Of a stretch of 64,000 bases of DNA, positions 7,290 through 59,165 are shown piece after piece. The stretch is taken from assembly GCF_040869045.1 (NCBI RefSeq), contig NC_090324.1, positions 54,713,346-54,777,345 of the forward strand, given 5' to 3'. Origin of the DNA: Eurosta solidaginis. Its lineage: Eukaryota; Arthropoda; Insecta; Diptera; Tephritidae. Numbering within the stretch: position 1 is the stretch's first letter; each line of letters starts with the position of its first letter. Below the pieces are notes generated by a model. The model had not been told where the DNA came from and did no database searches. It saw only the letters and a program-made list of their open reading frames with translations. A program made the position numbers and the translations under genes.

Positions 7290-7758
7290 GTTTGTATGCA
7301 AACTAGTCCCTCAATTTTTGAGATATCTTGATAAAATTTGGTGAGCAGGTGTATTTGGGTGTCCGATTAGACATTTGTCGGAACCGACCGGATCGGACCA
7401 CTATAGCATATATCCTCCATACAACCGATTTTTCAGAAAAAGAGGATTTTTGTAATATCTTACCCAATTTAACAGATTGAAGCTTCAAACTTCACCATAT
7501 ACTTTCGTATATTGAACATATTGTTGCCTGAAAAAAATTATGAGATCGGTCGTATATATAGTATATATCCCCCACAACCGATTGTTCAGATAAGGAACTT
7601 TTCGTAATTACTGCCCTATTTTAAGAGCTAGAGGCTTCAAATTTCAGCGAATGCTTACTTATATAGCATATATTGTTGTCTCAAAAAATCATAAAGATCG
7701 GTGGTATATATAGTATATATATGGTGGTATATATAGTATATATATATAGTATATATAT

Positions 7759-11342: not shown

Positions 11343-12698
11343 ATATATATATTTTCGCAAATTTTAGCCCCATTTTAACAGCTAGAAGCTTCAAATTTCA
11401 CCGAGTATTTACTTATATAGCATATATTGTTGTCTGAAAAAATCATAGAGATCGGTTGTATATATAGTATATATCTCATACAACCGATTTTTCAGATAAG
11501 AAACTTTTCGCAATTTCTACCCCATTTTAACAGCTAGAAGCTTCAAATTTCACCAACTGCTTACGTGTATAGCGTACATTGATGTCTGAAAAAATCATTG
11601 AGATCGGTGATATACATAGTATATATCTCATACAACCGATTGTTCAGATAAGAAACTTTGCGCAATTTCTGCCCCGTTTTAACAGTCAGAAGCTTCAAAT
11701 TTCACAAAATGCTTTCGTATATAGCATATATTGTTGTCTGAAAAAATCATAGAGATCGGTGGTATATATATTATATACTTCATATAAACTGTCATATTGA
11801 CCCCTTTTTTACGGCTAGAAGCTTCACGATTCATCAAATAATTACGTTTACGTCATATATTTTTGAAATACGTGATTCGTAGCCATAGTTTTTACATGCA
11901 GACCACAAAAAACGTGAAGCTTTGCACCCTCACACAGATTACCTACCTATTTTTTATTTTATATTTATCTTAAAAATCGTTTAGATATGTTCAAATTTCA
12001 CCAAATGCTTACGTGTATAGCATATATTGTTGTCTGAGAAAATCATAGATACCGGTGGTATATATAGTATATATGCCATACAACCGATTGTTCAGATAAG
12101 AAACTTTGCGCAATTTCTTCCCCATTTTAACAGTTATAAGCTTCAAATTTCACCGATTGCTTACGTATATAGTATGTATTGTTGTGTCAAAAAATCATAG
12201 AGATCGGTGATATATATAATATATATATGATGGTATATATAGTATATATATAGTATATATATATTTTTTTTACGATTTCGGCCCCATTTTAACAGCTAGA
12301 AGCTTCAAATTTCACAAAATGCTTACGTATATAGCATATATTGTTGTCTGAAAAAATCATAGAGATCGGTCGTATATATATTATATACTTCATATAAACT
12401 GTCATTTTCACCCCTTTTTTACGGCTAGAATCTTCAAAATTCATCAAATTTCATCAAATAGTTACGTTTTCGTCATATATTTTTGAAATACGTGATTCGT
12501 AGTCATAGTTTTTACACGCAGACCACAAAAAACCTGAAACTTTGCATCCTCACACAAAGTACCTACCCGTTTTTTATTTTATATTTATCTTAAAAATCGT
12601 TAAGGTATGTAGATCTGTTCACTATATATTTCTTATCTTATACATCCGATTATTCGGAGATTACGAACGGGATAAGATTATTGTTCAGCCCCATTCAT
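11343..12698 (+). repeat. ~153 bp degenerate tandem repeats in Helentron-type element I
   Basis: The phrase agcttcaaatttcac recurs at about 11388, 11540, 11694, 12143 and 12302, with catatattgttgtctgaaaaaatcat and cataaccg-type blocks between. The same units occur left of the LTR insertion (~7480-7750), showing the two flanks belong together. Units include short (TA)n runs and one internal divergent segment (11780-11990) repeated at 12385-12600. Confidence 0.8.
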
Positions 12699-13953: not shown

Positions 13954-15034
13954 GTAACAATTATTTTCATGCACAATAATTAAACTTTTTTTTTTATGAC
14001 GAGAACAACTTTACACCAGCAGCATCCAAATCGGAAAAAACCAGAAAATTTTCTGATGCTTCACCTCAACCATCCCAACTCTCCGTTTTTTTCCTCTCTT
14101 ATGAAAATGTAATTGTCATTGTACATTAATTACTAGTATTAGTATTGGATCTCACAACTTTTCACAGTGTCTTGTACGGTGTCTAAGTGAGCAGGTATAT
14201 AAAAGTGGACCCGGGGTTATTCTATAATGTGTTTCTACGATATGGGTATCAAATTAAAGGTGTTAATGAGGGTTTTAAAAGGGAGTGGCCCTTAGACGCC
14301 TTTTCGAGATATAGCCATAAAGGTGGACTAGGGGTGACTAGAATGCGTTTGTACGATATGGGTATCAAATGAAAGGTGTTAATGATTATTTAAAACGTAG
14401 TGGGCCTTAGTTCTATAGGTGGACGCCTTTTCGAGATATAGCCATAAGGGTTGTCCAGGGGTGACTCTAGAATGGGTTTGTACGATATGGGTATCAAATG
14501 AAAGGTGTTATTGAGTATTTTAAAAGTAAGTGGGCCTTAGTTCTATAGGGGGACGCCTTTTCGAGATATCGTCATAAAGGTGGACCAGGGGTGACACTAG
14601 AAATCGTTTGTACGATATGGGTATCAAGTGAAAGGTGTTAATGATTATTTAAAAGGGGGTGGGCCTTAGTTCTATAGGTGGACGCCTTTTCGAGGTAACA
14701 ATTATTTTCATGCACAATAATTAAACTTTTTTTTTATGACGAGAACAACTTTACACCAGCAGCATCCAAATCGGAAAAAACCAGAAAATTTTCTGATGCT
14801 TCACCTCAACCATCCCAACTCTCCGTTTTTTTCCTCTCTTATGAAAATGTAATTGTCATTGTACATTAATTACTAGTATTAGTATTGGATCTCACAACTT
14901 TTCACAGTGTCTTGTACGGTGTCTAAGTGAGCAGGTATATAAAAGTGGACCCGGGGTTATTCTATAATGTGTTTCTACGATATGGGTATCAAATTAAAGG
15001 TGCTAATGAGGGTTTAAAAGGGAGTGGCCCTTAG
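13954..15034 (+). repeat. Direct duplication with a period of ~741 bp
   Basis: The block at 13954-14295 (starting gtaacaattattttcatgca) recurs nearly unchanged at 14695-15034. It includes the last bases before the tandem array and its first unit. The second copy starts in the middle of an array unit, so the duplication is local and probably arose by unequal exchange or slippage. Confidence 0.85.
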
Positions 15035-21092: not shown

Positions 21093-22251
21093 TCAATATA
21101 CATATGTATATAAAAGAAAGTGGTGTTAGTTACACTATTTATAACTCAAGAACGGGTGAAACGATTTGGCTGAAAATTGGTGGAGAAATAGCATAGAACT
21201 AGGAGACGGACATAGGGAACTTTTTATCCCGTTCTGGCTAGGGTCTTGAGATCAAAACGTGGACTTGGGTAATCCTGTGAAGTGTTTGTACAATATGGGT
21301 ATCAAATGGAAGCTGTTTATGAGTACTTTAATACGGGGTATTTTTCGTACCCCTGAGTGACTATGGTCACTATATATAGGCCAAAACGTGGGCCTGGGTA
21401 CCCCTAGAATGTGTTTATACAATATGTATAACAAATGAAAGCTATTGACGAGTGCTTTAATACAGGGTAATTTGCATACCTATTTGTGATTAGGGTCTCG
21501 AGATATAGCCCAAAACGATGCTCAGGGTAATACTAGGATGTGTTTTTACATTATGGGTACCAAATTGAAGCTGTTGATGAATGCTTTAGTACAGGGTAGT
21601 TTTTATACTTATTGGTGACTAGGGTCTAGAGATATATGCCGGGATCAGGGTAACACTAGGATGTATTTTTACATTATGAGTATCAAATTGGAACTGTTGA
21701 TGTGTGCATTAGTACAGAGTAAGTTTTATACCGCTGGGTGACTAGGGTCTCGACATATAGGCCAAAGTTTGCACCCGGATACCCATAGAATGTGTGTGTA
21801 TTATGAATATCAAATGCAAGCTGTTGCTGAGAGCTTTAAAGTAATTTTCTTTGTGATATTCGATTTTATCGCATCAACCTGGCAAAACTGATAAATATGC
21901 ATGCGAAACCGAAATAAATACATGAATTAATAATACCCACATACATATTTACATACGTCCTATTCGATTTGCCTGAAATTTGGTATATACATTTGCCTAT
22001 ATTAGTATTTACGATCCTTTTTTCCGGGAAGTAGACCAGAGACGGACTGGGACTGGAATTAGGACTCGGAGTGGCACTGCGCCTGGAAAAGTGGGAAGGG
22101 GAAGGAGACTGAGAAATAGATAGAGTGAGACAAAGATAGAAATAGATGGAGCAAAAAATACAGAGGGAGGAGTGAATAAAAGGATTAAAAAAAGTGAATG
22201 TATGCAGATAGACCAAATTTAGGGCAGAACAATGTCTGACGGTTCTGCTAG
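21093..22251 (+). mobile_element. Non-autonomous Helitron, copy A
   Basis: The proposed 5' end is A|TC at 21093, leading into tatataaaagaaagtggtgttagttac. The 3' end has a GCAGAAC...GTTCTGC hairpin and ends CTAG (22248-22251) followed by T. This fits Helitron rules (TC start, hairpin, CTRR end, insertion between A and T, no target duplication). Inside are degenerate ~120 bp repeats containing gggtatcaaatg and actagggtct, loosely similar to the element II array. There is no Rep/helicase coding sequence, so it depends on an autonomous Helitron. Confidence 0.75.
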
Positions 22252-23433: not shown

Positions 23434-23445
23434 ATAACATTTTTG

Positions 23446-23784
23446 TCATGCAGATTTTTTAATTTTTATAAGCTTTTCTGATCTAATTGTTGATAGTGCG
23501 AATAAAAGAGACTTATTCCACCTTATAACTCAACGTTTCGCCAAATTTCCTTGGCATCATCAGGAGTTGAGATATCTATATTTATTTAATATAAGAAAGC
23601 GAACATTACAATAAGTTTTTATTTTTTTACATCCATATATATAGAGATATGTAAGGAGACGGTGAACATGATTACACATCAAACAAAAATTACACTTGAC
23701 AATAATGTTAATTTTGCACTTACTTACATAAAAATGTGTTGCTTTAAATATTCAAATATGTTAAAACCATTAAACTATTAAAAC
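23446..23784 (-). repeat. PLE2 left terminal repeat (inverted)
   Basis: Reverse complement of ~25629-25985. It reads in from the junction as ttataagcttttctgatctaa and ends at ccattaaactattaaaac, seven bases before the ORF start. Confidence 0.9.
23527..23568 (-). ncRNA. Hammerhead-like motif, PLE2 left repeat
   Basis: Inverted copy of the motif at 25845-25886. Core and stem I bases appear unchanged. Transcripts of the element's plus strand would carry its complement, not the ribozyme. Confidence 0.55.
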
Positions 23785-23790
23785 AGAATT

Positions 23791-25575
23791 ATGAATTTTA
23801 AGCGCAACATCACGCACAATTCTGTGGAAAAATTCATATTAGAAACATATAGGAAAACAAAAGCGTTCCTTAAGACACACAAAGACGACATAGTCATCAC
23901 AGACAGCGACAAAGGAAACAAAACAATAGCACTCTACAAAATGGACTACAACACTAAAATGTAAAATCTACTAGGAGACAAGAATACTTACAAAGTAGTT
24001 AGAGGCGATCCAACAAACACACTACAAAGGAAAAACAACAACATAGTTTACGAACTATATAAAGGCAAACACATTAGCTTAAGAGAAAAACAACAATTGA
24101 CGAGCACGGCAGCAACTGCCCCTCGTTTATATGGGCTACCAAAAATCCACAAACCTGAATGTCCCCTACGTCCAATTGTTTCGTGCACCAATGTCCCATG
24201 TTATCAGCTCTCCAAATTTATAGGAAAAATACTGATATCGTTGATTTCGCCTGAACTCAACATTAAAAACTCATATGAATTAAAAGAAAGACTAAACAAT
24301 ATAAATGTTTGTGAAAAAGATGTGTTAGTGTCGTTCGATGTTGTCTCCTTGTTCACCAACATACCAACAAATTTAGCGTCAAAAATCATAATGCGGAAAT
24401 GGGAAGAAATAGCAAAAAACACGACTATATCAAAGAGTAAGTTCCAAAGCATATTAAATTTCTGCCTCAAAGATAACAATTACTTCACACACAACGACAA
24501 AATGTATATACAAACTTATGGCATGCCCATGGGCAACCCCCTCTCCCCCACTATTGCCGACATAGTCATGGACGATGTACTCAACTTCACATTCACGGAA
24601 CTCCAAAAACAACACGGCATACAAATAAAATTTCTAGTCAAATACGTAGACGACATCTTCGCGATTATTGAAAAGGACGACGCAAATATAATTTTAGATA
24701 CACTCAACAAATACCACAACAAGTTAAAATTTACTATAGAGAAAGAAGTAAATGGCAGTATCCCTTTCTTGGACACCCGCATTCACAACAACAACAATAA
24801 TTTGATTTTAGATTGGTACTCTAAACCAACGGCTTCTGGGCGCCTAATGAACTATTTTTCTTCTCAGCCCTTTAAATATAAAATTAATACAGCAAATAAT
24901 TTTATACATAAAGTATTATCAATAAGCCATCAACAGTTTCATGAGACGAATGTAAGAAATATTAAAAACACGCTTAAAAAGAATAACTACCCTGACTACT
25001 TAATAACCAATCTAATCGACAAAAAACTAATGGACATAAAAAACACAACAAAACAAACCCCAAATATAGATAACCAAACAAAGCGATACTTCAGTGTCAC
25101 ATACATTCCCAGGCTGACAGAAAGTCTTGCACATGATCATAATAATAAGAGAACATCCCACACAACATTGGCATTCAAATCGAATTGCACTCTAGCGACG
25201 TGTTTCACTAAAACAAAAAGCCCTATAGATATCCAACAACAAAGTAATGTAGTATATGAAATACAGTGCAAAGGTAACGACAGCGAAAAATGCAACAAAG
25301 TGTACATTGGCACAACAAAAAGAACACTAGGTACGCGATTAGCTGAACACGAAGCCGACATACGCAAACAAAAACAAAGCACAGATTTATCTCAACATGC
25401 GGTAACAAACAACCACACAGCTGACTTTGCAAATACAAGAATATTGGACAAAGAGAAAAGAGAAAAAACGAGATACACCATAGAGAGCCTTCGAATACTT
25501 CAAAAAAGAGAACATACGATTAACAGAAGAGAAGACACTGACAATATTGCCGCTTCATATTTATTATGTTTATAG
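23791..25575 (+). pseudogene. PLE2 reverse transcriptase/GIY-YIG protein with one internal stop
   Basis: From ATG 23791 the frame is continuous to TAG near 25575 except for TAA at 23962-23964. N-terminal part: FLKTHKDDIVITDSDKGNK. RT: LYGLPKIHKPECPLRPIV, VSFDVVSLFTNIP, YGMPMGNPLSPTIAD, KYVDDIFAIIEK, GSIPFLDTRIH and ILDWYSKPTASGRLMNY. Endonuclease: VVYEIQCKGN, KVYIGTTKRTLGTRLAEHEA, with Cys pair (QC, KC) and His pair (QHA, NNH) for zinc. The ORF ends with LLCL-type residues close to the terminal repeat. About 595 codons is somewhat short for a full Penelope protein, so the N-terminus may be incomplete. Confidence 0.9.
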
Positions 25576-25628
25576 CATTTATAGTGACAAGTTTACCACA
25601 AAAAACGATGGTATCGATTTTTGATTTA

Positions 25629-25998
25629 GTTTTAATAGTTTAATGGTTTTAACATATTTGAATATTTAAAGCAACACATTTTTATGTAAGTAAGTGCAAA
25701 ATTAACATTATTGTCAAGTGTAATTTTTGTTTGATGTGTAATCATGTTCACCGTCTCCTTACATATCTCTATATATATGGATGTAAAAAAATAAAAACTT
25801 ATTGTAATGTTCGCTTTCTTATATTAAATAAATATAGATATCTCAACTCCTGATGATGCCAAGGAAATTTGGCGAAACGTTGAGTTATAAGGTGGAATAA
25901 GTCTCTTTTATTCGCACTATCAACAATTAGATCAGAAAAGCTTATAAAAATTAAAAAATCTGCATGCCAAACAAACTGATCGGTAACAAAAATCTTGT
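25629..25998 (+). repeat. PLE2 right terminal repeat
   Basis: Holds the 3' untranslated end with the hammerhead-like fold and ends in aatctgcatgccaaacaaactgatcgg-type sequence before the target duplication. Its first ~355 bp is repeated inverted at the left end. Confidence 0.88.
25845..25886 (+). ncRNA. Hammerhead-like motif, PLE2 right repeat
   Basis: CTGATGA (25850-25856), one extra T, stem II gcc/ggc (25858-25860 with 25871-25873), GAAA (25874-25877), self-complementary ACGT (25877-25880) as minimal stem III, T25881 at the cleavage position, and stem I gagtt (25882-25886) pairing with aactc (25845-25849). The extra T after CTGATGA departs from the textbook core. Confidence 0.6.
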
Positions 25999-26010
25999 AT
26001 AACATTTTTG

Positions 26011-33136: not shown

Positions 33137-34295
33137 TCAATATACATATGTATATAAAAGAAAGTGGTGTTAGTTACACTATTTATAACTCAAGAACGGG
33201 TGAAACGATTTGGCTGAAAATTGGTGGAGAAATAGCATAGAACTAGGAGACGGACATAGGGAACTTTTTATCCCGTTCTGGCTAGGGTCTTGAGATCAAA
33301 ACGTGGACTTGGGTAATCCTGTGAAGTGTTTGTACAATATGGGTATCAAATGGAAGCTGTTTATGAGTACTTTAATACGGGGTATTTTTCGTACCCCTGA
33401 GTGACTAGGGTCACTATATATAGGCCAAAACGTGGGCCTGGGTACCCCTAGAATGTGTTTATACAATATGTATAACAAATGAAAGCTATTGACGAGTGCT
33501 TTAATACAGGGTAATTTGCATACCTATTTGTGATTAGGGTCTCGAGATATAGCCCAAAACGGGGCTCAGGGTAATACTAGGATGTGTTTTTACATTATGG
33601 GTACCAAATTGAAGCTGTTGATGAATGCTTTAGTACAGGGTAGTTTTTATACTTATTGGTGACTAGGGTCTAGAGATATATGCCGGGATCAGGGTAACAC
33701 TAGGATGTATTTTTACATTATGAGTATCAAATTGGAACTGTTGATGTGTGCATTAGTACAGAGTAAGTTTTATACCGCTGGGTGACTAGGGTCTCGACAT
33801 ATAGGCCAAAGTTTGCACCCGGATACCCATAGAATGTGTGTGTATTATGAATATCAAATGCAAGCTGTTGCTGAGAGCTTTAAAGTAATTTTCTTTGTGA
33901 TATTCGATTTTGTCGCATCAACCTGGCAAAACTGATAAATATGCATGCGAAACCGAAATAAATACATGAATTAATAATACCCACATACATATTTACATAC
34001 GTCCTATTCGATTTGCCTGAAATTTGGTATATACATTTGCCTATATTAGTATTTACGATCCTTTTTTCCGGGAAGTAGACCAGAGACGGACTGGGACTGG
34101 AATTAGGACTCGGAGTGGCACTGCGCCTGGAAAAGTGGGAAGGGGAAGGAGACTGAGAAATAGATAGAGTGAGACAAAGATAGAAATAGATGGAGCAAAA
34201 AATACAGAGGGAGGAGTGAATAAAAGGATTAAAAAAAGTGAATGTATGCAGATAGACCAAATTTAGGGCAGAACAATGTCTGCCGGTTCTGCTAG
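33137..34295 (+). mobile_element. Non-autonomous Helitron, copy B
   Basis: Same length (1,159 bp) and ends as copy A. One change in the terminal loop (tgccgg instead of tgacgg) leaves the hairpin intact. Confidence 0.75.
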
Positions 34296-42100: not shown

Positions 42101-42204
42101 AGTTGTAACGACAGCCTTAGAAATTTAGAAAGAATATTGTTGTTATCGCGCAACGGGCTATATGCAGAGATGTGTATACAACGGCATTTGCATTACATGC
42201 ATTA

Positions 42205-42933
42205 CACCAATTTCTTTTCATCACAACCTTTAAGTATAAATTAAATACCGCCAAAAATTGTATACATAAAGTACTGACCATCAGCAATCAATGTTTTCAT
42301 AACGCTAATATAGAACAAATCAAAATGACGCTAAGAAGTAACAATTATCCCATTAAATTAATATGTAATCTAATTGACCGTAAACAACAAGAATTAATAA
42401 ATATTTCCACACAAACCACAACTAAAGAGTCGCCGAATGAGCCAAAACAATATTTTAGTACGACCTATATTCCCAGGCTCTCAGCAAATCTAGCACAACA
42501 CATAACAAGAAACCCTAAAGTAACACTGGCTTACAAATCTAACCACACTCTATCAACATTCTTTACAAAAACAAAAAGCCCGATCGACATACAACAACAA
42601 AGTAACGTGGTATACCAAATAGAGTGCAAAGGAAATGAAACTGAACATTGCAAGAAAATATATATTGGCACTACGAAGAGGGCGCTAAACGCACGACTTG
42701 CAGAGCACCAAGCCGATATCAACAAAGAAAAACACAGCACGGCGTTATCACAGCACGCGGTAACCAAAAAACACACAGTAGATTTCACAACAACAAAAAT
42801 AATAGACAAAGAGACGAGAGAAAGAACAAGGTACACACTCGAGAGCCTAAGAATAATGCAAAACAGAGAAAAGGCAATGAACAAGAAAGAAGATACACAA
42901 GACATAGCCGCGACTTACTTGTTATGCCTATGA
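42205..42933 (+). pseudogene. PLE3 RT C-terminus and GIY-YIG endonuclease
   Basis: Open frame without stops, but 5' truncated: no RT catalytic motifs remain. It begins in FKYKLNTAKNCIHKVL, matching the post-RT region of PLE2. The endonuclease has VVYQIECKGN, KIYIGTTKRALNARLAEHQA and Cys/His pairs (EC, HC; SQHA, KKHT). The ORF ends IAATYLLCL, as in PLE2 and PLE4. Confidence 0.88.
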
Positions 42934-43186
42934 CACAGGTAATTAGTTTTAGTTTGACAAGTTTACCATATAGTGATGGTAGCATTTAATTTTTTTGTAA
43001 AGTAATAATAAAATCGTTTTTTAAATACCAATGTGAGTGAATATAAATAATTGTTTGTGAAGTAATATTTCATGTAAAATTCAAATTTATAATTGTGCAA
43101 AACTTTGTTTGAAACTATGTAATTTAGATCGTGTAATTTTATTTCTAATGTTGTTTTTGTATTTTGTTATAAACAAATATAGACCA

Positions 43187-43224
43187 CCCCTGAAGAAGAT
43201 AAGGATAATTATCGAAACGTTGGG
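43187..43224 (+). ncRNA. Hammerhead-like motif, PLE3
   Basis: CTGAAGA (43190-43196), one extra A, stem II gata/tatc (43198-43201 with 43210-43213), GAAA (43214-43217), ACGT (43217-43220), T43221 at the cleavage position, and stem I ggg (43222-43224) with ccc (43187-43189). All stem sequences differ from PLE2 but still pair. Confidence 0.6.
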
Positions 43225-43427
43225 CTAAATGGTGGAATAAATCACATTTTATTTGCACTTGACCCTAATAGATCAGTAAAGCTGAAAAACTACATATAAA
43301 TTAATAAAACTGATCGGAAATTACCATTAGATAATTATTGTTATTTTTTAATTTTTCTAAATTTGTAAAATTGTATTTTGTTTTTGAAATAGTAAGTAGA
43401 AAAATTTTCAGACAACCTGCCATAGCT

Positions 43428-43477
43428 GCGCAGATAGATCCATTTCGAAGGGTGCTAAGCCTTCATCATCAGTATGC
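43428..43477 (-). ncRNA. Hammerhead-like motif, satellite unit 1
   Basis: Core intact, but stem I carries a change (tatgc for tacgc on the plus strand) that breaks one pair. Confidence 0.5.
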
Positions 43478-43856
43478 TTTAGGCATGCTGCGCTAACCAT
43501 TTAGCTATACAGCGGTGGTTTGTTTGACTGGCAAATTTGCTACTTCTATTCCTTTTTACCAACTATATTTATTCAGTGTTGCGCCATCTGGTTCAAATCA
43601 CTGATAATGCAGGATTTTTGTTTATTGTCAATTACTTTGTTTGATATTCCCAAGTGCTCATGGTTTATTAACAATTGTTTTTTGTTTTTATCGGCCTATT
43701 GATAAATCATTCAAGGTTCGAATCGAGCTCAAGGCCAGAACAATAATTTTTTTCTAATGATAATTATTGTTATTTTTTAATTTTTCTTAATTTGTAAAAT
43801 TGTATTTTGTTTTTGAAATAGTAAGTAGAAACATTTTCAGACAACCTGCCATAGCT

Positions 43857-43906
43857 GCGCAGATAGATCCATTTCGAAGGGTGCTAAGCCTTCATCATCA
43901 GTACGC
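43857..43906 (-). ncRNA. Hammerhead-like motif, satellite unit 2
   Basis: Consensus form: GCGTA, CTGATGA, extra T, stem II GAAGG/CCTTC with an 8-base loop, GAAA, short stem III ATGG/CTAT, C at the cleavage position (AUC triplet), then TGCGC, which pairs with GCGTA to make stem I (one G-U pair). Confidence 0.6.
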
Positions 43907-44285
43907 TTTAGGCATGCTGCGCTAACCATTTAGCCTATACATCGGTGGTTTGTTTGACTGGCAAATTTGCTACTTCTATTCCTTTTTACCAACTATATTT
44001 ATTCAGGGTTGCGCCATCTGGTGCAAATCACTGTTAATGCTGGATTTTTGTTTATTGTCAATTACTTTGTTTGACGTTCCCAAGTGCTCATGGTTTATTA
44101 ACAATTGTTTTTGTTTTTATCGGCCTATTGATAAATCATTCAAGGTTCGAATCGAGCTCAAGGCCAGAACAATACTTTTTTTCTAATGATAATTATTGTT
44201 ATTTTTTAATTTTTCTAAATTTGAAAAATTTTATTTTGTTTTTGAAATAGTAAGTAGAAAAATTTTCAGACAACCTGCCATAGCT

Positions 44286-44332
44286 GCGCAGATAGATCCA
44301 TTTCGAAGGGTGCTAAGCCATCATCAGTACGC
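44286..44332 (-). ncRNA. Hammerhead-like motif, satellite unit 3 (damaged)
   Basis: A 3-base deletion removes half of stem II, so this unit should not fold correctly. Confidence 0.45.
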
Positions 44333-44710
44333 TTTAGGCATGCTGCGCTTACCATTAACTATACAGCGGTGGTTTGTTTGACAGACAAATTTGCTACTTC
44401 TATTCCTTTTTACCAACTATGTTTATTCAGGGTTGCGCCATCTGGTGCAAATCACTGATAATGCTGGATTTTTGTTTATTGTCAATTACTTTGTTTGACA
44501 TTCCCAAGTGCTCATGGTTTATTAACAATTGTTTTTGTTTTTATCGGCCTATTGATAAATCATTCAAGGTTCGAATCGAGCTCAAGGCCAGAACAATAAT
44601 TTTTTTCTAATGATAATTATTGTTATTTTTTAAATTTTTCTCAATTTGAAAAATTGTATTTTGTTTTTGAAATAGTAAGTAGAAAAATTTTCATACAACC
44701 TGCCATAGCT

Positions 44711-44760
44711 GCGCAGATAGATCCATTTCGAAGGGTGCTAAGCCTTCATCATCAGTACGC
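44711..44760 (-). ncRNA. Hammerhead-like motif, satellite unit 4
   Basis: Same as the consensus described for unit 2. Confidence 0.6.
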
Positions 44761-45138
44761 TTTAGGCATGCTGCGCTAACCATTTAGCTATACAGCGGTG
44801 GTTTGTTTGACTGGCAAATTTGCTACTTCTATTCCTTTTTACCAACTATATTTATTCAGTGTTGCGCCATCTGGTGCAAATCACTGATAATGCTGGATTT
44901 TTGTTTATTGTCAATTACTTGGTTTGACATTCCCAAGTGCTCATGGTTTATTAACGATTGTTTTTGTTTTTATCGGCCTATTGATAAATCATTCAAGGTT
45001 CAAATCGAGCTCAAAGCCAGAACAATAATTTTTTTCTAATGATAATTATTGTTATTTTTTAATTTTTCTAAATTTGAAAAATTGTATTTTGTTTTTGAAA
45101 TAGTAAGTAGAAAAATTTTCAGACAACCTGCCATAGCT

Positions 45139-45188
45139 GCGCAGATAGATCCTTTTCGAAGGGTGCTAACCCTTCATCATCAGTACGC
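45139..45188 (-). ncRNA. Hammerhead-like motif, satellite unit 5
   Basis: Stem II is lengthened to six pairs (GAAGGG/CCCTTC) by one base change. Stem III loses its second pair. Confidence 0.55.
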
Positions 45189-45826
45189 TTTAGGCATGCT
45201 GTGCTAACCATTTAGCTATACACGGTGGTTTGTTTGACTGGCAAATTTGCTACTTCTATTCTTTTTACCAACTATATTTATTCAGTGTTGCGCCATCTGG
45301 TGCAAATCATTGATAATGCTGGATTTTTGTTTATTGTCAATTACTTTGTTTGACATTCCCAAGTGCTAATGGTTTATTAACAATTGTTTTTGTTTTTATC
45401 GGCCTATTGATAAATCATTCATAATTATCATTAGAAAAAAATTATTGTTCTGGCCTTGAGCTCGATTCGAACCTTTCTACTTACTATTTCAAAAACAAAA
45501 TACAATTTTTTAAATATAGAAAAATTAAAAAATAACAATAATTATCATTAGAAAAAAATTATTGTTCTGGCCTTGAGCTCGATTCGAACCTTGAATGATT
45601 TATCAATAGGCCGATAAAAACAAAAACAATTGTTAATAAACCATGAGCACTTGGGAATGTCAAACAAAGTAATTGACAATAAACAAAAATTCAGCATTAT
45701 CAGTGATTTGTACCAGATGGCGCAACACTGAATAAATATAGTTGGTAAAAAGAAATAGAAGTAGCAAATTTGCCAGTCAAACAAACCACCACTGTATAGA
45801 TAAATGGTTAGCGCAGCATGCCTATA

Positions 45827-45876
45827 GCGTACTGATGATGAAGGCTTAGCACCCTTCGAAATGGATCTATCTGCGC
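45827..45876 (+). ncRNA. Hammerhead-like motif, satellite unit 6 (inverted block)
   Basis: Consensus core and stems; now on the plus strand. Confidence 0.6.
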
Positions 45877-46254
45877 AACTATGGCAGGTTTTCTGAAAAT
45901 TTGTCTACTTACTATTTCAAAAACAAAATACAATTTTTCAAATTTAGAAAAATTAAAAAATAACAATAATTATCATTAGAAAAAAATTATTGTTCTGGCC
46001 TTGAGCTCGATTCGAACCTTGAATGATTTATCAATAGGCCGATAAAAACAAAAACAATTATTAATAAACCATGAGCACTTGGGAATGTCAAACAAAGTAA
46101 TTGACAATAAACAAAAATTCAGTATTATCAGTGATTTGTACCAGATGGCGCAACACTGAATAAATATAGTTGGTAAAAAGAAATAGAAGTAGCAAATTTG
46201 CCAGTCAAACAAACCACCGCTGTATAGCTAAATGGTTAGCGCAGCATGCCTAAA

Positions 46255-46304
46255 GCGTACTGATGATGAAGGCTTAGCACCCTTCGAAATGGATCTATCT
46301 GCGC
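46255..46304 (+). ncRNA. Hammerhead-like motif, satellite unit 7 (inverted block)
   Basis: Consensus core and stems. Confidence 0.6.
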
Positions 46305-46652
46305 AACTATGGCAGGTTGTCTGAAAATTTTTCTACTTACTATTTCAAAAACAAAATACAATTTTTCAAATTTAGAAAAATTAAAAAATAACAATAATTA
46401 TCATTAGAAAAAAATTATTGTTCTGGCATTGAGCTCGATTCGAACCTTGAATGATTTATCAATAGGCCGATAAAAACAAAAACAATTGTTAATAAACCAT
46501 GAGCACTTGGGAATGTCAAACAAAGTAATTGACAATAAACAAAAATCCAGCATTATCAGTGATTTGCACCAGATGGCGCAACACTGAATAAATATAGTTG
46601 GTAAAAAGGAATAGAAGTAGCAAATTTGCCAGCCAAACAAACCACCGCTGTA

Positions 46653-46663
46653 TAGCTAAATGG
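46653..46663 (+). promoter_or_regulatory. Pol III A-box-like sequence in satellite unit 8
   Basis: TAGCTAAATGG matches the A-box pattern TRGYNNARNGG and is followed by TTAGCGC as in tRNA genes. A weak B-box-like TTCGAAAT lies 58 bases downstream, inside the hammerhead core. Equivalent sequences sit in the other units. Confidence 0.45.
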
Positions 46664-46682
46664 TTAGCGCAGCATGCCTAAA

Positions 46683-46732
46683 GCGTACTGATGATGAAGG
46701 CTTAGCACCCTTCGAAATGGATCTATCTGCGC
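46683..46732 (+). ncRNA. Hammerhead-like motif, satellite unit 8 (inverted block)
   Basis: Consensus core and stems, 20 bases after the A-box-like sequence. Confidence 0.6.
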
Positions 46733-46918
46733 AGCTATCGCAGGTTGTCTGAAAATTTTTCTACTTACTATTTCAAAAACAAAATACAATTTTTGAAATT
46801 TAGAAAAATTAAAAAATAACAATAATTATCATTAGAAAAAAATTATTGTTCTGGCCTTGAGCTCGATTCGAACCTTGAATGATTTATCAATAGGCCGATA
46901 AAAACAAAAACAATTGAT

Positions 46919-48480
46919 AGGATATTTGTTTTTATATTTGCAAAATTTATTGCCTTTGGATTTTTTTCTTTTCAAGCTTCCAAATTTTGATCGCGATTCC
47001 TTTAGAATTGGTTTACATAAGCAGTCACTTGTGTGCTAAAGGTCGTAAGTGGGTTTCAGTTATATATTCTCCTCTTCGGGATTTTTTTCTGAGTTTTTTT
47101 TTGCTTTGTCTACAATAAATTTTTTTTAGACCTTTGTAGTAACACTTATTTACTTAACTTTAATTTATTAAATTGATTGAGTTAGTTACTTCTAATGAAA
47201 CTTACTCATTCCACTTTTAAACACAAATTTCTTTTTTCTGGTAATTTTTTTTTTAATTTGCCAAATTTGTGAATTTTTATTTTTTCTTTTGGTCATCAAC
47301 GTTTAAAAATATATTATTAATATTTCCTTTTTACACTTTTGCGATTGCGCATAACCTTTTTATTTTTAACTTACTATAATTTCTAGATTTTTTTTTCATT
47401 TTGTTCATTTCACACAATTTTTTTTTCATGTCCGCGCAATTTTTATTTTTTCTTTTGATCATCAACGTTTAACAATATATTATTAATATTTCCTTTTTAC
47501 ACTTTTTGCGATTGCGCATAATCTTTTTATTTCTAACTTACTATAATTGCTGGATTTTTTTCATTTTGTTTATTTCACGCCCGTGCAACCGAAGTAAATA
47601 TCGAAAACTAAAACAAAACCTAATTATCAAAGAGATCAAGAACTAAAGCTGTCCTTAATTTTTGCTATTCGGTCAATGCCCTAGTAACTGAGTACCCTAC
47701 ATGATTGTTGTTGTATATTTTTCTCCACCTTCAGCTTAATAGCGGTCGTTGGTACCAAAACCGGTTGACAAAAGCGAGGTGAGTTCACGCTAATATAATA
47801 ACATATACACACCACAGGTACATATATTTATTTTTCTTGATGACTAATCGTACACACGTATGTACACATTTAAAAGAATTTAAATTCGTATGCATAGGCT
47901 TTGTTCAAGGAATATTAAGCAGGATCAGAATTTTTGAAAGTTGGTTTATAGAATCAAGTATAATAATTATAAATTACTTCCTTTACTTTTGAAATAAAGT
48001 AATTGGGAATAACTTTTGTTGGGGTAAACTGTCAATTGATGATCATTGGAAGAATTGAATTTTGTTGTTTGGATTAAACCCTTAAGTTAGTAAGATCTTT
48101 TTCGATATTTAAAATTTTACGTGAATTATAATTAATAAAGAATTTTGTATACTTTTATGAAACTATCCTGATACGATATTATTAATGGGTTGAAGTTTCT
48201 TTTAGTCGGAACATAATAAATATGTCAGGCTAAACTCATTTCTTTGGTGGTGCAGGTGTTGCCCTTGAGGCAAGTTGCAAGGTGGGTTGGGACAGTTGAA
48301 GGAGTGAGGGACATGGACTGAAAACTTAGTGACGGACGGTTGTCAGGAAATAGGGAACTCCACTAGATTAACGGAGCCATAGTGGAGTTCAAGGCTGTTC
48401 ACTTCTTGTGAACAGAAGGGGTGGGAAAGTTCCAACCTGACACGGACAGTTTTTTTCACCCGCTTTTAGCCTATCATCTT
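46919..48480. other. AT-rich, no gene seen; direct repeat of ~141 bp
   Basis: A block at 47272-47413 (aatttttattttttctttt, gtcatcaacgttta, gcgattgcgcata) recurs at 47439-47580 with a few changes, a period of ~168. The rest, including the G-rich stretch at 48240-48470, is unassigned. Confidence 0.55.
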
Positions 48481-53477: not shown

Positions 53478-54425
53478 ATATTGTAAACCCTCTAAACTGA
53501 ATTTTGTGGTTCGGTGAATTATTGAATTGAATTCTTGAGTTTTTATATTTGAATATGTTTTGTTGTTTTTATACTCAGATGAGCAGAGCTCACAGAGTAT
53601 ATTAACTTTGTTCGCACAACGGTAATCCGTAACGGCATAAACTTATGGAGATAGATATAGACTTCTATATATCAATATGATCTGGGCGAAAAAAGAAATA
53701 AATTCAGCCATGTCCGTCCGTCCGTAAATACGATAACTTGAGTAAATTTTGAGGTATCTTGATGAAATTTGGTATGTAGGTTCGCTCATCTCACATCGCT
53801 ATTTTAGATATCGAAAATTTCGAAAAACCGAAAAAGTGCGATAATTCATTACCAAAGACGGATAAAGCGATGCCGTGCGTTAACCTTATGACGCAAAATA
53901 GAAAATTAGTAAAATTTTGGAAAATGGGCGTGACACCACCTACTTTTAAAAGAAGGTAATTTAAAAGCTTTGCAAGCAGTAATTTGGCAGTCGTTGAAGA
54001 TATCGTGATGAAATTTGGCAGGAATGTTACTCCTATTACTATATGGCTCCGCCCTTTTTCATTTAATTCGTCTAGAATACTTTTAATGCCATAAGTCGAA
54101 CAAAAATTTACCAATTCTTGTGAAATTTGGTAGGGGCATAGACTCTATGACGATAACTGTTTTCCGTGAAAATGGGCGAAATCGCTTGAAGCCACGACCA
54201 GTTTTTATACACAGCCGACCGTCTGTCTTTCCGCTCGGCCGTTAACACGATAACTTGAGCAAAAATCGATATATTTTTACCAAACTTAGTTCAAGTACTT
54301 ATCTGAACTCACTTATATAATTTTCTTCCGATCTGTTTGGATAATATTTATGTATATTTTAAGCTACGCAGATCTATTGTGTTGGGTGCAAATAAAAATA
54401 AGAATAAAGATTATTCCACCTTTCA

Positions 54426-54465
54426 GCTCGACGTTTCGCCAAATTTCCTTGGCATCTTCAGGAGC
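54426..54465 (-). ncRNA. Hammerhead-like motif, PLE4 left arm
   Basis: Reverse-strand twin of the motif at 56846-56885, with the same stems. Confidence 0.58.
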
Positions 54466-54744
54466 GTGACACTGTATTTATTTAATAAAACAACAAAGAA
54501 CACAATCAGATACATATAGATTTGAAATTTAAAATATTGCAAATAAATATTGATTGCACAAAATTTTTCTTACTTACAATGATTAACGAAAAACGCAATT
54601 TGTACTAAAACATTTAAAACATTTGAATATTAAAAAATTACGGAAAGTTAATAAAGTACAAAAAATCGATACCACCTACATGCGGTAAACTTGTCATACT
54701 AAAAATTAAATTACAAACATAATAAGTACGCGGCGGCGATATTG

Positions 54745-55849
54745 TCTGTATCTTCTTTTTTGTTTATTATGTTTCCTCTTTTCTGCAAAATTCGAGGCTT
54801 TCTAAGGTGTAACGCGCTTTTTCTCTCCTTCCGGTGTCTATTATTTTTATGTTTTCAAAATCAGCTGTGTGTTTGTTTTCTATTGCATGCTGTGCCAAAG
54901 CTGTGCTTTGTTTTTGTTTACGTATATCTGCTTCGTGCTCAGCTACCCGCGTGCCGAGCGCCCGCTTTGTGGTCCCAATGTAGACCTTATTGCAGCTATC
55001 TTCTTTATTCCCTTTACAATGAATTTCGTAAACTACATTGCTACTTTGTTGGAGATCTATGGGTGTTTTTGTTTTTGTAAAGCACGTTGCCAAAGTGCAG
55101 TTTCACCTGTATGCTAGTGTAGTGTTTTGGTTTGATGTTTTTGTCAAGTCATGTGTGAAATTTTCTGTGAGCCTAGGAATGTAAGTGACACTGAAGTATC
55201 GCTTTGTCTGGTTATTTGTATCTGAAGACTGTGTTTTTTGGGCTATATTTTCTATTTCCATTTGTTTCTGATTTATTAAATTTGATATGATATGGTCTGG
55301 ATAATTATTCTTTTTAAGCGTCAATTTAATTTTCCTAATATTTGCGTCATGAAAACTTTAATGGCTGATAGATAATATTTTGTCTATAAAGTTCTTCGCA
55401 GTATTTATTTTGTATTTGAAAGGCTTTGAGGATATAAAGTTTATGAGGCGCCCAGAAGAGGTTGGTTTCGAATACCAATCCAATATTAGTTTGTTATTGA
55501 GCCTGTGTATCCGTGTGTCTAGATAGGGGATGTTGTTGTTTTCTTCTTTTTCGATCGTAAACTTTAGTCGATTATGATATCTATTTAACACATCTAATAT
55601 AGTATTTGTGTCTTTTCTTGGGATGATGGCGAAAATATCATCTACATATTTGACTAGGAACTTTATTTGTATGTTGTGTTGTTTCTGTAATTCAATAAAA
55701 ATGTGTGAAAGCGCGTCATCCATTATTATATTGGCAATGGTTGGGGAAAGGGGGTTCCCCATAGGCATTCCATATGTTTGTGTATATATGTTGTTGTTTT
55801 GCACGAAATAATTGTTGTCTTTTAATATTGGATTGGTATTCGAAACCAA
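54745..55849 (-). pseudogene. PLE4 left arm: RT part and GIY-YIG endonuclease
   Basis: 55849-55358: ILKDNNYFVQNN, YGMPMGNPLSPTIAN (motif B), KYVDDIFAIIPR (motif C), NIPYLDTRIHR and ILDWYSKPTSSGRL. A stop or frame change follows near 55355, then 55324-55103, then 55093-54767 with VVYEIHCKGN, KVYIGTTKRALGTRVAEHEA and the Cys/His pairs. A frameshift after TLESL scrambles the end. RT motif A is missing because the arm is truncated at the palindrome centre. Confidence 0.88.
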
Positions 55850-56600
55850 CCTCTTCTGGGCGCCTCATAAACTTTATATCCTCACAGCCTTTCAAATACA
55901 AAATAAATATGGCGAAGAACTTTATAGACAAAATATTATCTATCAGCCATCAAAGTTTTCATGATGCAAATATTAGGAAAATTAAATTGACGCTTAAAAA
56001 GAATAATTATCCAGACCATATCATATCAAATTTAATAAATCAGAAACAAATGGAAATAGAAAATATAGCCCAAAAACACAGTCTTCAGATACAAATAACC
56101 AGACAAAGCGATACTTCAGTGTCACTTACATTCCTAGGCTCACAGAAAATTTCACACATGACTTGACAAAAACATCAAACACAAAAACTACACTAGCATA
56201 CAGGTCAAACTGGACTTTGGCAACGTGCTTTACAAAAACAAAAACACCCATAGATCTCCAACAACGTAGCAATGTAGTTTACGAAATTCATTGTAAAGGG
56301 AATAAAGAAGATAGCTGCAATAAGGTCTACATTGGGACCACAAAGCGGGCGCTCGGCACGCGGGTAGCTGAGCACGAAGCAGATATACGTAAAAAAAAAC
56401 AAAGCACAGCTTTGGCACAGCATGCAATAGATAACAAACACACAGCTGATTTTGAAAACATAAAAATAATAGACACCGAAAGGAGAGAAAAAGCGCGTTA
56501 CACCTTAGAAAGCCTAAGAATTTTGCAGAAAAGAGGAAACACAATAAACAAAAACGAAGATACAGTCAATAGCGCCGCCGCGTACCTATTATGTTTGTAA
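55824..56600 (+). pseudogene. PLE4 right arm: RT tail and GIY-YIG endonuclease
   Basis: Starts at ILDWYSKPTSSGRL. A one-base loss in an A run near 56073 shifts the frame after NIAQK, and the protein resumes in the frame of 56163-56600 (ATCFTKTKTPIDLQQ, VYIGTTKRALGTRVAEHEA, AAAYLLCL). No RT catalytic motif is present. Confidence 0.88.
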
Positions 56601-56845
56601 TTTAATTTTTAGTATGACAAGTTTACCGCATGTAGGTGGTATCGATTTTTTGTACTTTATTAACTTTCCGCAATTTTTTAATATTCAAATGTTTTAAATG
56701 TTTTAGTAAAAATTGTGTTTTTCGTTAATCATTGTAAGTAAGAAAAATTTTGTGCAATCAATATTTATTTGCAATATTTTAAATTTCAAATCTATATGTA
56801 TCTGATTGTGTTCTTTGTTGTTTTATTAAATAAATACAGTGTCAC

Positions 56846-56885
56846 GCTCCTGAAGATGCCAAGGAAATTTGGCGAAACGTCGAGC
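56846..56885 (+). ncRNA. Hammerhead-like motif, PLE4 right arm
   Basis: CTGAAGA (56850-56856), one extra T, gcc/ggc stem II (56858-56860, 56871-56873), GAAA (56874-56877), ACGT (56877-56880), C56881 at the cleavage position (GUC triplet), and stem I gagc (56882-56885) with gctc (56846-56849). Confidence 0.62.
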
Positions 56886-57289
56886 TGAAAGGTGGAATAA
56901 TCTTTATTCTTATTTTTATTTGCACCCAACACAATAGATCTGCGTAGCTTAAAATATACATAAATATAACTCACTTTATTTTGGTATTAAAATGGCCGAA
57001 AATCGACTATGACACGGACACTTTTCGATATCGAAAATTACGAAAAATTAAAAAAATGCGATAATTCTATACCAAATATGAAAAAAGGGATGAAACATGG
57101 TAATTGGTTTGGTTTATTGACGCAAAATATAAGTTTAGAAAAAAATCTGTAAAATGGGTGTGACACCTACCATATTAAGTAGAAGAAAATGAAAAAGTTA
57201 TGCAGGGCGCAATCAAAAGCCCTTGGAATCTTGGCAGGAATACTGTTCGTGGTATTACATATATAAATGAATTAGCGGTACCCGACAGA

Positions 57290-59165
57290 TGATGTTCTGG
57301 GTCACCCTGGTATACATTTTGATCGATATCTCGAAAATGCTTTCGCATATACAACTAAGGGCCACTCCCTTTCAAAACCCCGTTAGAACCTTTTATTTGG
57401 TACCCATATCGTACGAACACATTATAGATTCACCCCGATTCCACCTTTATGGCGTGACCTCGAAAAGGCGTCCACCTATAGAACTAAGGCCCACTCCCTT
57501 TTATATAATCATTAACACCTTTCATTTGACTCCCATATCGTACAAACAAATTCTGGAGTCACCCCTGGTCCACATTTTGGTCGATATCTCGAAAACGCTT
57601 TCGTATATACAACTAAGGGCCACTCCCTTTTAAAACCCCCCTTAGCACCTTTAATTTGATACCAATATCGTAGGAACACATTATAGATTCACCCCGATTC
57701 CACCTTTATAGCGTTACCTCGAAAAGGCGTCCACCTATAGAACTAAGGCATACTCCCTTTTAAAAAACTCATTAACACCTTTCATTTGATACCCATATCG
57801 TACAAACACATCCTAGAGTCACCCCTGACCCACCCTTATGGCCTTATCTCGAAAAGGCGTCCGCCTATAGAACTAAGGCCCACTCCATTTTAAAATACTC
57901 ATTAACACCTTTCTTTTGATACCCATATCGTACAAACGCATTCTAGTCACCCCTGGTCCACCTTTTTGGCGATATCTCGAAAAGGCGTCCACCTATAGAA
58001 CTAAGGCATACTCCCTTTTAAAAAACTCATTAACACCTTTCATTTGATACCCATATCGTACAAACACATCCTAGAGTCACCCCTGGCCCACCGTTATGGC
58101 GATATCTCGAAAAGGCGTCCACCTATATAACTAAGGCTTATTACGTTTTAAATAATCATTAACACCATTTATTTGAGAACCATATCGTACAAATGCATTC
58201 TAGTCACCCCTGGTCCTCCTTTATTGCGATGTCTCGAAAAGGCGTCCACCTATAGAACTAAGGCCCACCCCCTTTTAAAATATTCATTAACACCTTTCAT
58301 TTGATACTCATATCGTACAAACACATTCTAGAGTCACCTCTGGTCCACCTTTATGGCGATATCTCGAAAAGGCGTCCACCTATAGAACTAAGGCTTACTG
58401 CGTTTTAAATAATCATTAACACCTTTCGTTTGACAACCATATCGTACAAACGCATTCTAGTCACCCCTGGTCCACCTTTATGGCGATATCTCGAAAAGGC
58501 TTATTACGTTTTAAATAATCATTAACACCTTTCATTTGAGAACCATATCGTACAAATGCATTCTAGTCACCCCTGGTCCACCTTTATTGCGATGTCTCGA
58601 AAAGGCGTCCACCTATAGAACTAAGGCCCACCCCCTTTTAAAATATTCATTAACACCTTTCATTTGATACCCATATCGTACAAACATATTCTAGAGTCAC
58701 CTCTGGTCCACATTTATGGCGATATCTCGAAAAGGCGTCCACCTATAGAACTACGGCTTATTACGTTTTAAATAATCATTAACACCTTTCATTTGACAAC
58801 CATATCATACAAACGCATTCTAGTCACCCCTGGTCCACCTTTATGGCGATATCTCGAAAAGGCGTCCATCTATAGAACTAAGGCTTATTACGTTTTAAAT
58901 AATCATTCACACCTTTCGTTTGAGAAACATATCTTACAAACGCATTCTATTCACCCCTGGTCCACCTTTATGGCGATATCTCGAAAAGGCGTCCACCTAT
59001 AGAACTAAGGCCCACTCCCTTTTAAAATACTCTTTAACACCTTTCATTTGATACCCATATCGTACAAACACATTCTAGAGTCACCTCTGGTCCACCTATA
59101 GAACTATGGCCCCCTCCCTTTTAAAATACTCTTTAATACCTTTGAAACCCATGTCATACAAACAC
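57290..59165 (+). repeat. ~128 bp tandem array (about 15 units) in element II
   Basis: Each unit has cacccctggtccacctttatggcgatatctcgaa-type text in pieces: ggtccacctttatgg, cgaaaaggcgtccacctat, aactaaggcccactccc, cattaacacctttcatttga and ccatatcgtacaaac. Unit spacing is mostly 125-131. One unit near 58500 is shortened by ~20 bp. Confidence 0.92.

Follow-up and report, generated by a model that had tools for sequence, protein, structure and literature searches.

Introduction

What kind of element is the 428-bp tandem repeat at positions 43331-46918 of a 64,000-nucleotide stretch of the Eurosta solidaginis genome (Diptera, Tephritidae; contig NC_090324.1, positions 54,713,346 to 54,777,345; the whole stretch is hereafter called the window), and which machinery has copied it? 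A preliminary description of the window regarded the repeat as a satellite whose units carry hammerhead-like ribozymes, and as a candidate insect retrozyme. According to the accessible text of Cervera and de la Pena (2020, PMC7229834), metazoan retrozymes without long terminal repeats (non-LTR retrozymes) are tandem repeats of 150-450 bp with a type I hammerhead, which occur as short to long multimers and show duplications longer than 4 bp. The same text leaves open the enzyme that spreads animal retrozymes, and names Penelope-like elements (PLEs) as a strong candidate because both kinds of element carry type I hammerheads, occur in tandem and co-exist. In the accessible portions of two PLE studies, head-to-head is the arrangement most frequently observed among inverted PLE copies, a 31-bp tail is optional at one inverted pseudo-LTR (pLTR), and duplications measure 8-10 bp (PMC3846280); a purified PLE protein cuts and extends both DNA strands, initiating internally at an AC-rich stem loop, and the tail corresponds to the sequence that separates two reverse transcription start sites (PMC11167929).

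Here, we report that the 428-bp repeat is dispersed in the genome as a non-coding, retrotransposed element associated with target-site duplications. Judging from its insertion anatomy and predicted fold, we consider it quite probable that it belongs with the metazoan retrozymes, as a non-coding and non-autonomous retroelement copied by PLE machinery.

Results

Structure of the Repeat Array

The array comprises eight 428-bp units, five with their motifs on the minus strand followed by three inverted units with their motifs on the plus strand. Tandem Repeats Finder resolved it into two blocks, 43330-45421 (period 429, 4.9 copies, 96% match) and 45474-46916 (period 428, 3.4 copies, 97% match), the second of which is inverted relative to the first together with a preceding piece of about 53 bp (45421-45475). 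The left arm (43331-45421; hammerhead strand minus) holds about 4.9 tandem copies, and the right arm (45422-46918; hammerhead strand plus), which stands head-to-head with it, consists of the short piece (unit positions 95-149) and about 3.4 tandem copies. Unit positions are counted from the first base after the predicted cleavage site, with the unit at 46300-46727 as the coordinate standard. The eight units had been placed correctly in the preliminary description, as had the start of the array where a truncated PLE (PLE3) ends, a boundary that we read from the sequence at about 43330/43331; the inversion of the arms was absent from it.

The GC content of the unit is 33.2%. The longest stop-to-stop frame in the circular unit is 83 aa, leaving no coding capacity and no frame for a reverse transcriptase (RT) or a GIY-YIG domain. 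No LTR structure was seen in the unit; a primer-binding site and a polypurine tract were not searched for.

Genomic Dispersal and Insertion Anatomy

The genome searched comprised 1.91 Gb in 569 contigs. A 30-nt core of the unit, with up to 3 mismatches allowed, matched 7,614 genomic copies (3,862 + 3,752), as compared with 0 and 0 for the backward control. The repeat is therefore more than a local satellite, being a dispersed element with target-site duplications. On contig C5, at 96.89-97.02 Mb, many matches follow each other at unit-length spacing over about 130 kb, and from these matches the dispersed element seems to have expanded there into a long satellite block.

Insertion anatomy was read from 51 loci, representing 65 of 100 places listed. 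The listing comprised perfect-core copies on contig C1 only, taken by position, so that the sample is biased to intact cores. The 51 loci exclude duplicate views of one locus (L032, L033, L036, L037, L043, L057, L060), 35 of the listed places (about 15 loci) and the loci L001-L030, which had been selected by similarity. We found the arm order minus then plus ('-+') in 31 loci, a single minus arm in 9, a single plus arm in 9, '+-+' in 2 and '+-' in none. The end calling tolerates larger gaps, and the two '+-+' calls (L035 and L085) are owing to a short neighbouring match. One pair of places, at 74.285/74.289 Mb, had been listed as '+' then '-'; these are two separate inserts 3.4 kb apart, and hence there is no tail-to-tail insert at this position. 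Each of the three distant place pairs, this one included, consists of two single-orientation inserts, 1.7-3.4 kb apart.

Both outer ends of the head-to-head '-+' inserts are 3' ends of the unit, and they fall into two classes, with BLAST ends at unit positions 153-165 (mean 159, short) or 182-201 (mean 192, long). Both ends were resolved in 24 of the 31 '-+' loci, and every one of these (24/24) has one short and one long end. Read by themselves, the two '+-+' loci have short/long (L035) and long/long (L085) ends. Direct repeats of at least 10 bp at the insert edges were present in 24/50 loci, as compared with 35/2,450 mismatched left-right pairings (1.4%); examples are L052 and L067 and, by eye, L008 and L061.

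It was also observed that plus arms often start at unit positions 30-39, just 3' of the hammerhead fold (L039, L056, L061, L067, L069, L071; also window position 45474 and L006). A pause of the reverse transcriptase, a 5' end of the transcript and a microhomology hotspot are candidate causes of these starts.

The Hammerhead Motif

The letters CTGATGA...GAAA were found by a motif scan in all eight units, as the preliminary description had stated, at 45183, 44755, 44327, 43901 and 43472 on the minus strand and at 45832, 46260 and 46688 on the plus strand. One unit can be read as 5'-UGCC UAAA GCGUA / CUGAUGA U / GAAGG CUUAGCAC CCUUC / GAA / AUG GAUC UAU / C ^ UGCGC AGCUAU GGCA-3', in which stem I would have 5 bp followed by an internal loop and 3-4 more pairs, stem II 5 bp, and stem III 3 bp with a 4-nt loop, with AUC as the predicted cleavage triplet. 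The minimum-free-energy fold holds stem I, its outer extension and stem II, with some of the core letters paired too, and the same helices are visible by eye in the minimum-free-energy structure of the 428-nt circle. The hammerhead regions of the minus-strand units 1 to 5 lie at 43418-43487 (with an A.C mismatch in stem I), 43847-43916, 44276-44342 (stem II removed by a 3-nt deletion), 44701-44770 and 45129-45198 (stem II longer, stem III weaker). Those of the plus-strand units 6 to 8 lie at 45817-45886, 46245-46314 (predicted cleavage before 46300, AUC^UGCGC) and 46673-46742. The longer stem II of unit 5 (motif at 45183) and the loss of stem II in unit 3 (44327, 3 nt lost), both mentioned in the preliminary description, were thus seen again, and so was the short stem III that it had counted as a weak point.

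We searched with a descriptor, written after the motif had been seen, that consisted of CTGANGA, 0 or 1 extra nucleotide after A9, a stem II of at least 4 bp, a stem I of at least 4 bp, A15.1/U16.1 and H17. It was satisfied by 6/8 units. The window as a whole gave 10 matches, namely these six units and both ends of two further PLEs, PLE A and PLE B. In 20 Mb of random sequence with the dinucleotide make-up of the window, the descriptor was matched 3 times, or 1.3e-4 per unit with both strands counted; in the 428-bp units, the hammerhead motif far exceeds chance expectation. All 10 matches in the window carry a one-nucleotide insertion after A9. The extra T after CTGATGA, the other weak point raised at the outset, is real, and the hammerheads of PLE A and PLE B thus share it. 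The inserted nucleotide (unit position 396) varies between T, C and G among units (L008, L004, L028), as expected if its identity matters little.

A covariance-model check, which the preliminary description had proposed, returned no Rfam hammerhead match. At gathering scores, Rfam gave no hammerhead anywhere in the window, the PLE A and PLE B hammerheads included, and at E<=10 it gave neither a hammerhead nor a tRNA; the right-end hammerhead of PLE A, used as a control at E<=10, was also missed. Since Rfam is silent on the PLE hammerheads too, this test does not discriminate, and we did not count it against the motif. A model built from the 428-bp family itself (R1) recovers 8/8 window units and none of the PLE hammerheads; its matches are no test, because it was made from the same family. 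Among 117 collected full units, 99 of which come from similarity-selected loci, 87 have the exact consensus over positions 384-420. Selection on the hammerhead was not visible in these 117 units, as the per-position conservation is too uniform (mean deviation 1.5%).

A Second Family and Its Compensated Pairs

Locus L035 holds units about 69% identical to those of the window, which represent a second family with a unit of about 436 bp. A genome search with one such unit as the query placed this family on contigs C1-C6; of 354 candidates the 40 best were scored, and, leaving aside the place of the query itself, they are full-length matches of 92-97% identity. From these 40, 20 loci were fetched, of which 19 had a hammerhead anchor and yielded 37 units; L093 had no anchor. 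In the second family, stem I GCGUA/UGCGC is replaced by CGUUG/CAACG, so that each of the 5 pairs differs, four of them in both letters and one in a single letter, with pairing kept throughout. For stem II, a fixed alignment gives two compensated pairs and one that is unchanged, together with one broken pair and one that contains a gap; judged by eye, GGAAU/GUUCC could form, with an A.C or a bulge at the base. The loop letters UAAA, UUAGCA, GAAAUGGAUCUAU and AGCU are invariant or nearly so between both families. In an alignment of 13 sequences (11 distinct), 96.5% of the cells at paired positions were paired, as compared with 83.4% after shuffling and 26-49% with slid partners, and the covariation score was 0.415, as compared with 0.182 for shuffles. 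These compensated pairs between two element families support the predicted hammerhead fold.

The insertion anatomy of the second family is similar to that of the first. Among 12 loci, the arm order was '-+' in 9 and '+-' in none, all three resolved cases had one short and one long end (3/3), and edge repeats of at least 10 bp (each of at least 12 bp) occurred in 3/7 loci, as compared with 0/42 controls. L035 combines both families: an insert of the first lies within one of the second or next to it, and at the right end of the first-family insert the sequence runs on in second-family-like letters, which points to nested insertion or recombination.

Penelope-like Elements and the Start-Site Hairpin

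The window holds at least three PLE copies, all on the plus strand. PLE A (23446-25998) has hammerheads at 23563 (minus) and 25850 (plus), inverted arms of 343 bp that are 99.7% identical, and a 12-bp target-site duplication (23434-23445 and 25999-26010); its tail, of about 31 nt, is confined to the right end. PLE B (54315-56967) has hammerheads at 54461 (minus) and 56850 (plus), inverted arms 97.8% identical, and a 9-bp duplication (54306-54314 and 56968-56976); here only the left end bears a tail, of about 29 nt. PLE3 (42121-43330), which adjoins the array, is 5'-truncated; it retains a C-terminal frame (42121-42933), a hammerhead-like motif at 43190 with one extra A, and a tail that ends at about 43330. 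The protein frame at 23965-25575 is 99% identical to an annotated E. solidaginis protein, and the PLE A frame in the window has 536 aa, as compared with 823 aa in a relative (P0003). PLE A appears to have been recently active, because its inverted arms are 99.7% identical and near-identical terminal repeats exist elsewhere in the genome. A search for these repeats, in which 40 of 1,328 candidates were scored, gave 41 matches, of which 26 extend into the tail as far as the query end and the other 15 end at 319-334 (near 326). Seven inverted PLE A pairs were readable among the scored matches, all in the order minus then plus, and six of them have one end of each class, the exception being a pair with two tails at C3:192.68 Mb. 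The outer ends of a three-copy cluster at C1:184.96 Mb are also one of each class.

The two end classes lie around a hairpin in both kinds of element. The PLE hairpin has a 6-bp stem, GATCAG/CTGATC in PLE A and PLE3 and GATCTG/CAGATC in PLE B, with loops of 40 nt (A), 33 nt (B) and 33 nt (PLE3). In PLE A and PLE B, the 3' strand of the hairpin is preceded by the short end at a distance of 8-9 nt and followed by the long end at 15-17 nt; in PLE3, the long end alone is visible, 14 nt after. Both families of the 428-bp element have a 5-bp stem, GGCCT/AGGCC, with loops of 34 and 36 nt; the corresponding distances are 6-7 nt for the short end and 20-22 nt for the long end. In the right 3' end of the array, the putative reverse-transcription start region (46853-46918, plus strand) consists of GGCCT (46853-46857), a 34-nt loop, AGGCC (46892-46896) and an A/C-rich stretch, with the short start site near 46885 and the long end near 46918, where the window copy ends. 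The last window unit has GGCCT; the coordinate-standard copy has GGCAT. The order from hammerhead to start sites is common to the PLEs and the element. The hairpin geometry is thus similar though the sequences differ, a likeness that is suggestive but does not prove common descent; the ends used in it were taken from observed copies.

A blastn comparison of the unit with the window outside 43200-46950, which covers PLE A and PLE B and masks the 3' end of PLE3, gave weak A/T-rich matches only, and descent of the unit from a PLE terminal repeat is therefore not supported. The link to PLEs suspected in the preliminary description gains strength from the insertion footprint, which lay beyond the reach of that description; the derivation from PLEs finds no clear sequence similarity to back it.

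Other Repeats in the Window

Tandem repeats of about 127-130 bp at 57324-59097, 14295-14694, 21253-21839 and 33297-33810 have consensus units that are alike by eye, in both orientations, and appear to be another dispersed tandem family. A 152-bp tandem repeat occurs in two places (7402-7720 and 11352-11784).

Discussion

The covariation of the fold, the dispersal of the unit and its target-site duplications support the initial suggestion of a candidate insect retrozyme. Judged by its footprint, the element inserts like a PLE without being one, since it shares the anatomy of PLE inserts and has no RT or GIY-YIG frame. In the cycle that we propose, tandem copies would be transcribed from the hammerhead strand, the type I hammerhead would cut the transcript to 428-nt monomers, and a host ligase would circularise them. 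A PLE protein would bind the hairpin, which lies about 125-195 nt downstream of the predicted cleavage site and consists of a 5-bp stem and a 34-36 nt loop, followed by an A/C-rich stretch. Both strands of an A/T-rich target would be nicked, roughly 9-14 bp apart and presumably by the same enzyme, and cDNA synthesis would start near unit position 159 on one strand and near 192 on the other, the positions at which the ends are observed. Each cDNA would circle the template over anything from part of a turn to several turns, and both cDNAs would be joined head-to-head in mid-insert, giving products such as those in the sampled loci. Such an insert would consist of a minus and a plus arm, would be accompanied by a target-site duplication, and would carry a tail of about 33 nt on just one of its ends; the array in the window would be one of these inserts, beside the PLE3 tail. 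The PLE protein is proposed as the copying enzyme because of the insertion footprint, not of an experiment, and a ribozyme-made circle as the template because of the retrozyme biology set out in the accessible text of PMC7229834.

Several observations weigh against this cycle. The catalytic core of the 428-bp unit has an extra U after A9, and RNAalifold favours an alternative pairing of the core letters, a pairing that is invariant and uninformative. Two of five covariation measures were not above the shuffles (both-side changes, 6 vs. 5.4; further pair types, 8 vs. 10.4), and the covariation is in effect one comparison with few events, because the support comes from two near-identical sequence blocks. 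U4 is a conserved letter of the hammerhead core, and the core of the second family reads CCGATGA in 36/37 units (U4 to C) and CAGATGA in the remaining unit, CTGATGA being absent. This family may therefore be slow or inactive and cleave poorly, its fold perhaps being kept for another reason. The cDNA ends show no clear pile-up at the predicted cleavage site, three arm ends lying within 2 nt of it, and six plus arms starting at 30-39; this fits circles, as do the multi-unit arms, and uncut multimers fit too. The long/long ends of L085 bring the two-end rule to 25/26 when both '+-+' loci are included, the second end was not resolved in 7/31 '-+' loci, and 18/51 loci have a single orientation only. 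The element and the PLEs are alike in architecture, not in sequence. In the accessible part of PMC11167929, a PLE with a mutated hammerhead retains insertion in vitro, and reads ending at the cleavage site were not found.

Some of these points bear on an alternative that agrees with the proposed cycle on mobilisation by PLEs and differs on the ribozyme step, in which the hammerhead does not work in the cycle, uncut multimers are the templates, and the three-way fold either serves the PLE protein as a binding site or is a relic. In favour of such an idle hammerhead are the second family, which keeps its stems yet has C for U4 in 36/37 units, the cDNA arms that pass the predicted cleavage site without a clear stop, and the accessible part of PMC11167929, where the PLE hammerhead is dispensable for insertion in vitro and does not self-cleave without its protein. 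However, the first family retains the canonical CTGATGA/GAAA core, with 87/117 units exact over positions 384-420, and circular templates too would let cDNA cross the ligated site. We regard this alternative as unlikely, though as one to be taken seriously. A further alternative is mobilisation by twin priming of a long interspersed nuclear element (LINE), or by a reverse transcriptase other than that of PLEs. LINE-1 twin priming also yields inversions with target-site duplications, and a few ends of the present inserts adjoin A-runs (e.g., L026 and L042). Twin priming, however, places the second outer end at an arbitrary internal position, whereas the present inserts end at two fixed sites that are separated by about 33 nt; most inspected ends have no poly(A) tail, and the PLEs of the window show the same footprint. 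We rejected twin priming on these grounds and consider such an agent improbable.

An ordinary satellite, shaped by unequal crossing-over and inversion and carrying a hammerhead by chance, would suit the tandem 428-bp units and the long block on C5 (96.89-97.02 Mb), but in the sampled loci it is contradicted by the two fixed ends, the duplications and the single arm order. With thousands of dispersed copies, a motif far above chance and a covarying stem I as well, we give it hardly any credence. A tRNA-derived repeat resembling a short interspersed nuclear element (SINE), in which the hammerhead-like letters are a degenerate tRNA, is suggested by an A-box-like string, TAGCTAAATGGTTAG, on the hammerhead strand (46653-46667, plus) and a B-box-like string, GGTTCGAATC, on the opposite strand (46865-46874, minus), labels that follow the A-box and B-box consensus; similar strings occur in the second family (L035). 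The two boxes are not on one strand, ARAGORN found 0 tRNA in the window and Rfam none at E<=10, and the helix that covaries is the hammerhead helix, all of which makes this origin very improbable. The strings themselves may represent a promoter for RNA polymerase III and, within the loop of the start-site hairpin, a stretch complementary to tRNA; a tRNA fold was not found there.

The reading as a PLE-copied retrozyme can also be set against known systems. As in the metazoan retrozymes described in the accessible text of PMC7229834, the repeat is within 150-450 bp (428 bp), non-coding and low in GC (33%), has a type I hammerhead fold, forms short to long multimers with duplications longer than 4 bp, and shares its genome with PLEs. 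It differs in the extra nucleotide after A9. It also has head-to-head arms, two fixed 3' ends separated by about 33 nt, and a start-site hairpin, none of which that text mentions. With PLEs, as far as the accessible parts of PMC3846280 and PMC11167929 describe them, it shares head-to-head inserts, a one-end tail, short duplications and a hammerhead upstream of the ends, whereas it has no RT or GIY-YIG frame and a stem III of 3 bp as compared with a minimal one. Its hairpin loops of 34-36 nt resemble the PLE loops of 33-40 nt in the window, and PLE A and PLE B likewise have an extra nucleotide after A9, although they show no clear sequence similarity to the unit. The pDo500 repeat of Dolichopoda cave crickets likewise combines tandem units with a hammerhead-like structure in an insect, and it shows some transcription; it is described as satellite DNA, the word inverted is absent from the accessible main text, and the accessible passages do not describe insertion ends (PMC2808323). 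The (+) hammerhead of chrysanthemum chlorotic mottle viroid reportedly has an extra residue between A9 and stem II and is active, the differences being that it belongs to a plant viroid and that its extra base is said to be A.

The open-licence literature searched, outside which most subscription papers lie, reported neither such a footprint for a retrozyme nor a retrozyme in Eurosta. The inserts described here bear three hallmarks of PLEs together, namely head-to-head arms, a tail at one end and short duplications, and the PLEs of the same genome bear identical marks, so that the footprint bears on the machinery that mobilises animal retrozymes. It might also account for the array form of retrozymes and for the inversion seen in some arrays. 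We lean slightly towards the further view that animal retrozymes are PLE satellites in a strict sense, which would copy the PLE start hairpin and have the PLE protein use both start sites, one per DNA strand, on a circular RNA cut by the hammerhead. If this were true, retrozyme arrays would be head-to-head rolling-circle concatemers, and the machinery that mobilises them would be readable from the genome sequence alone.

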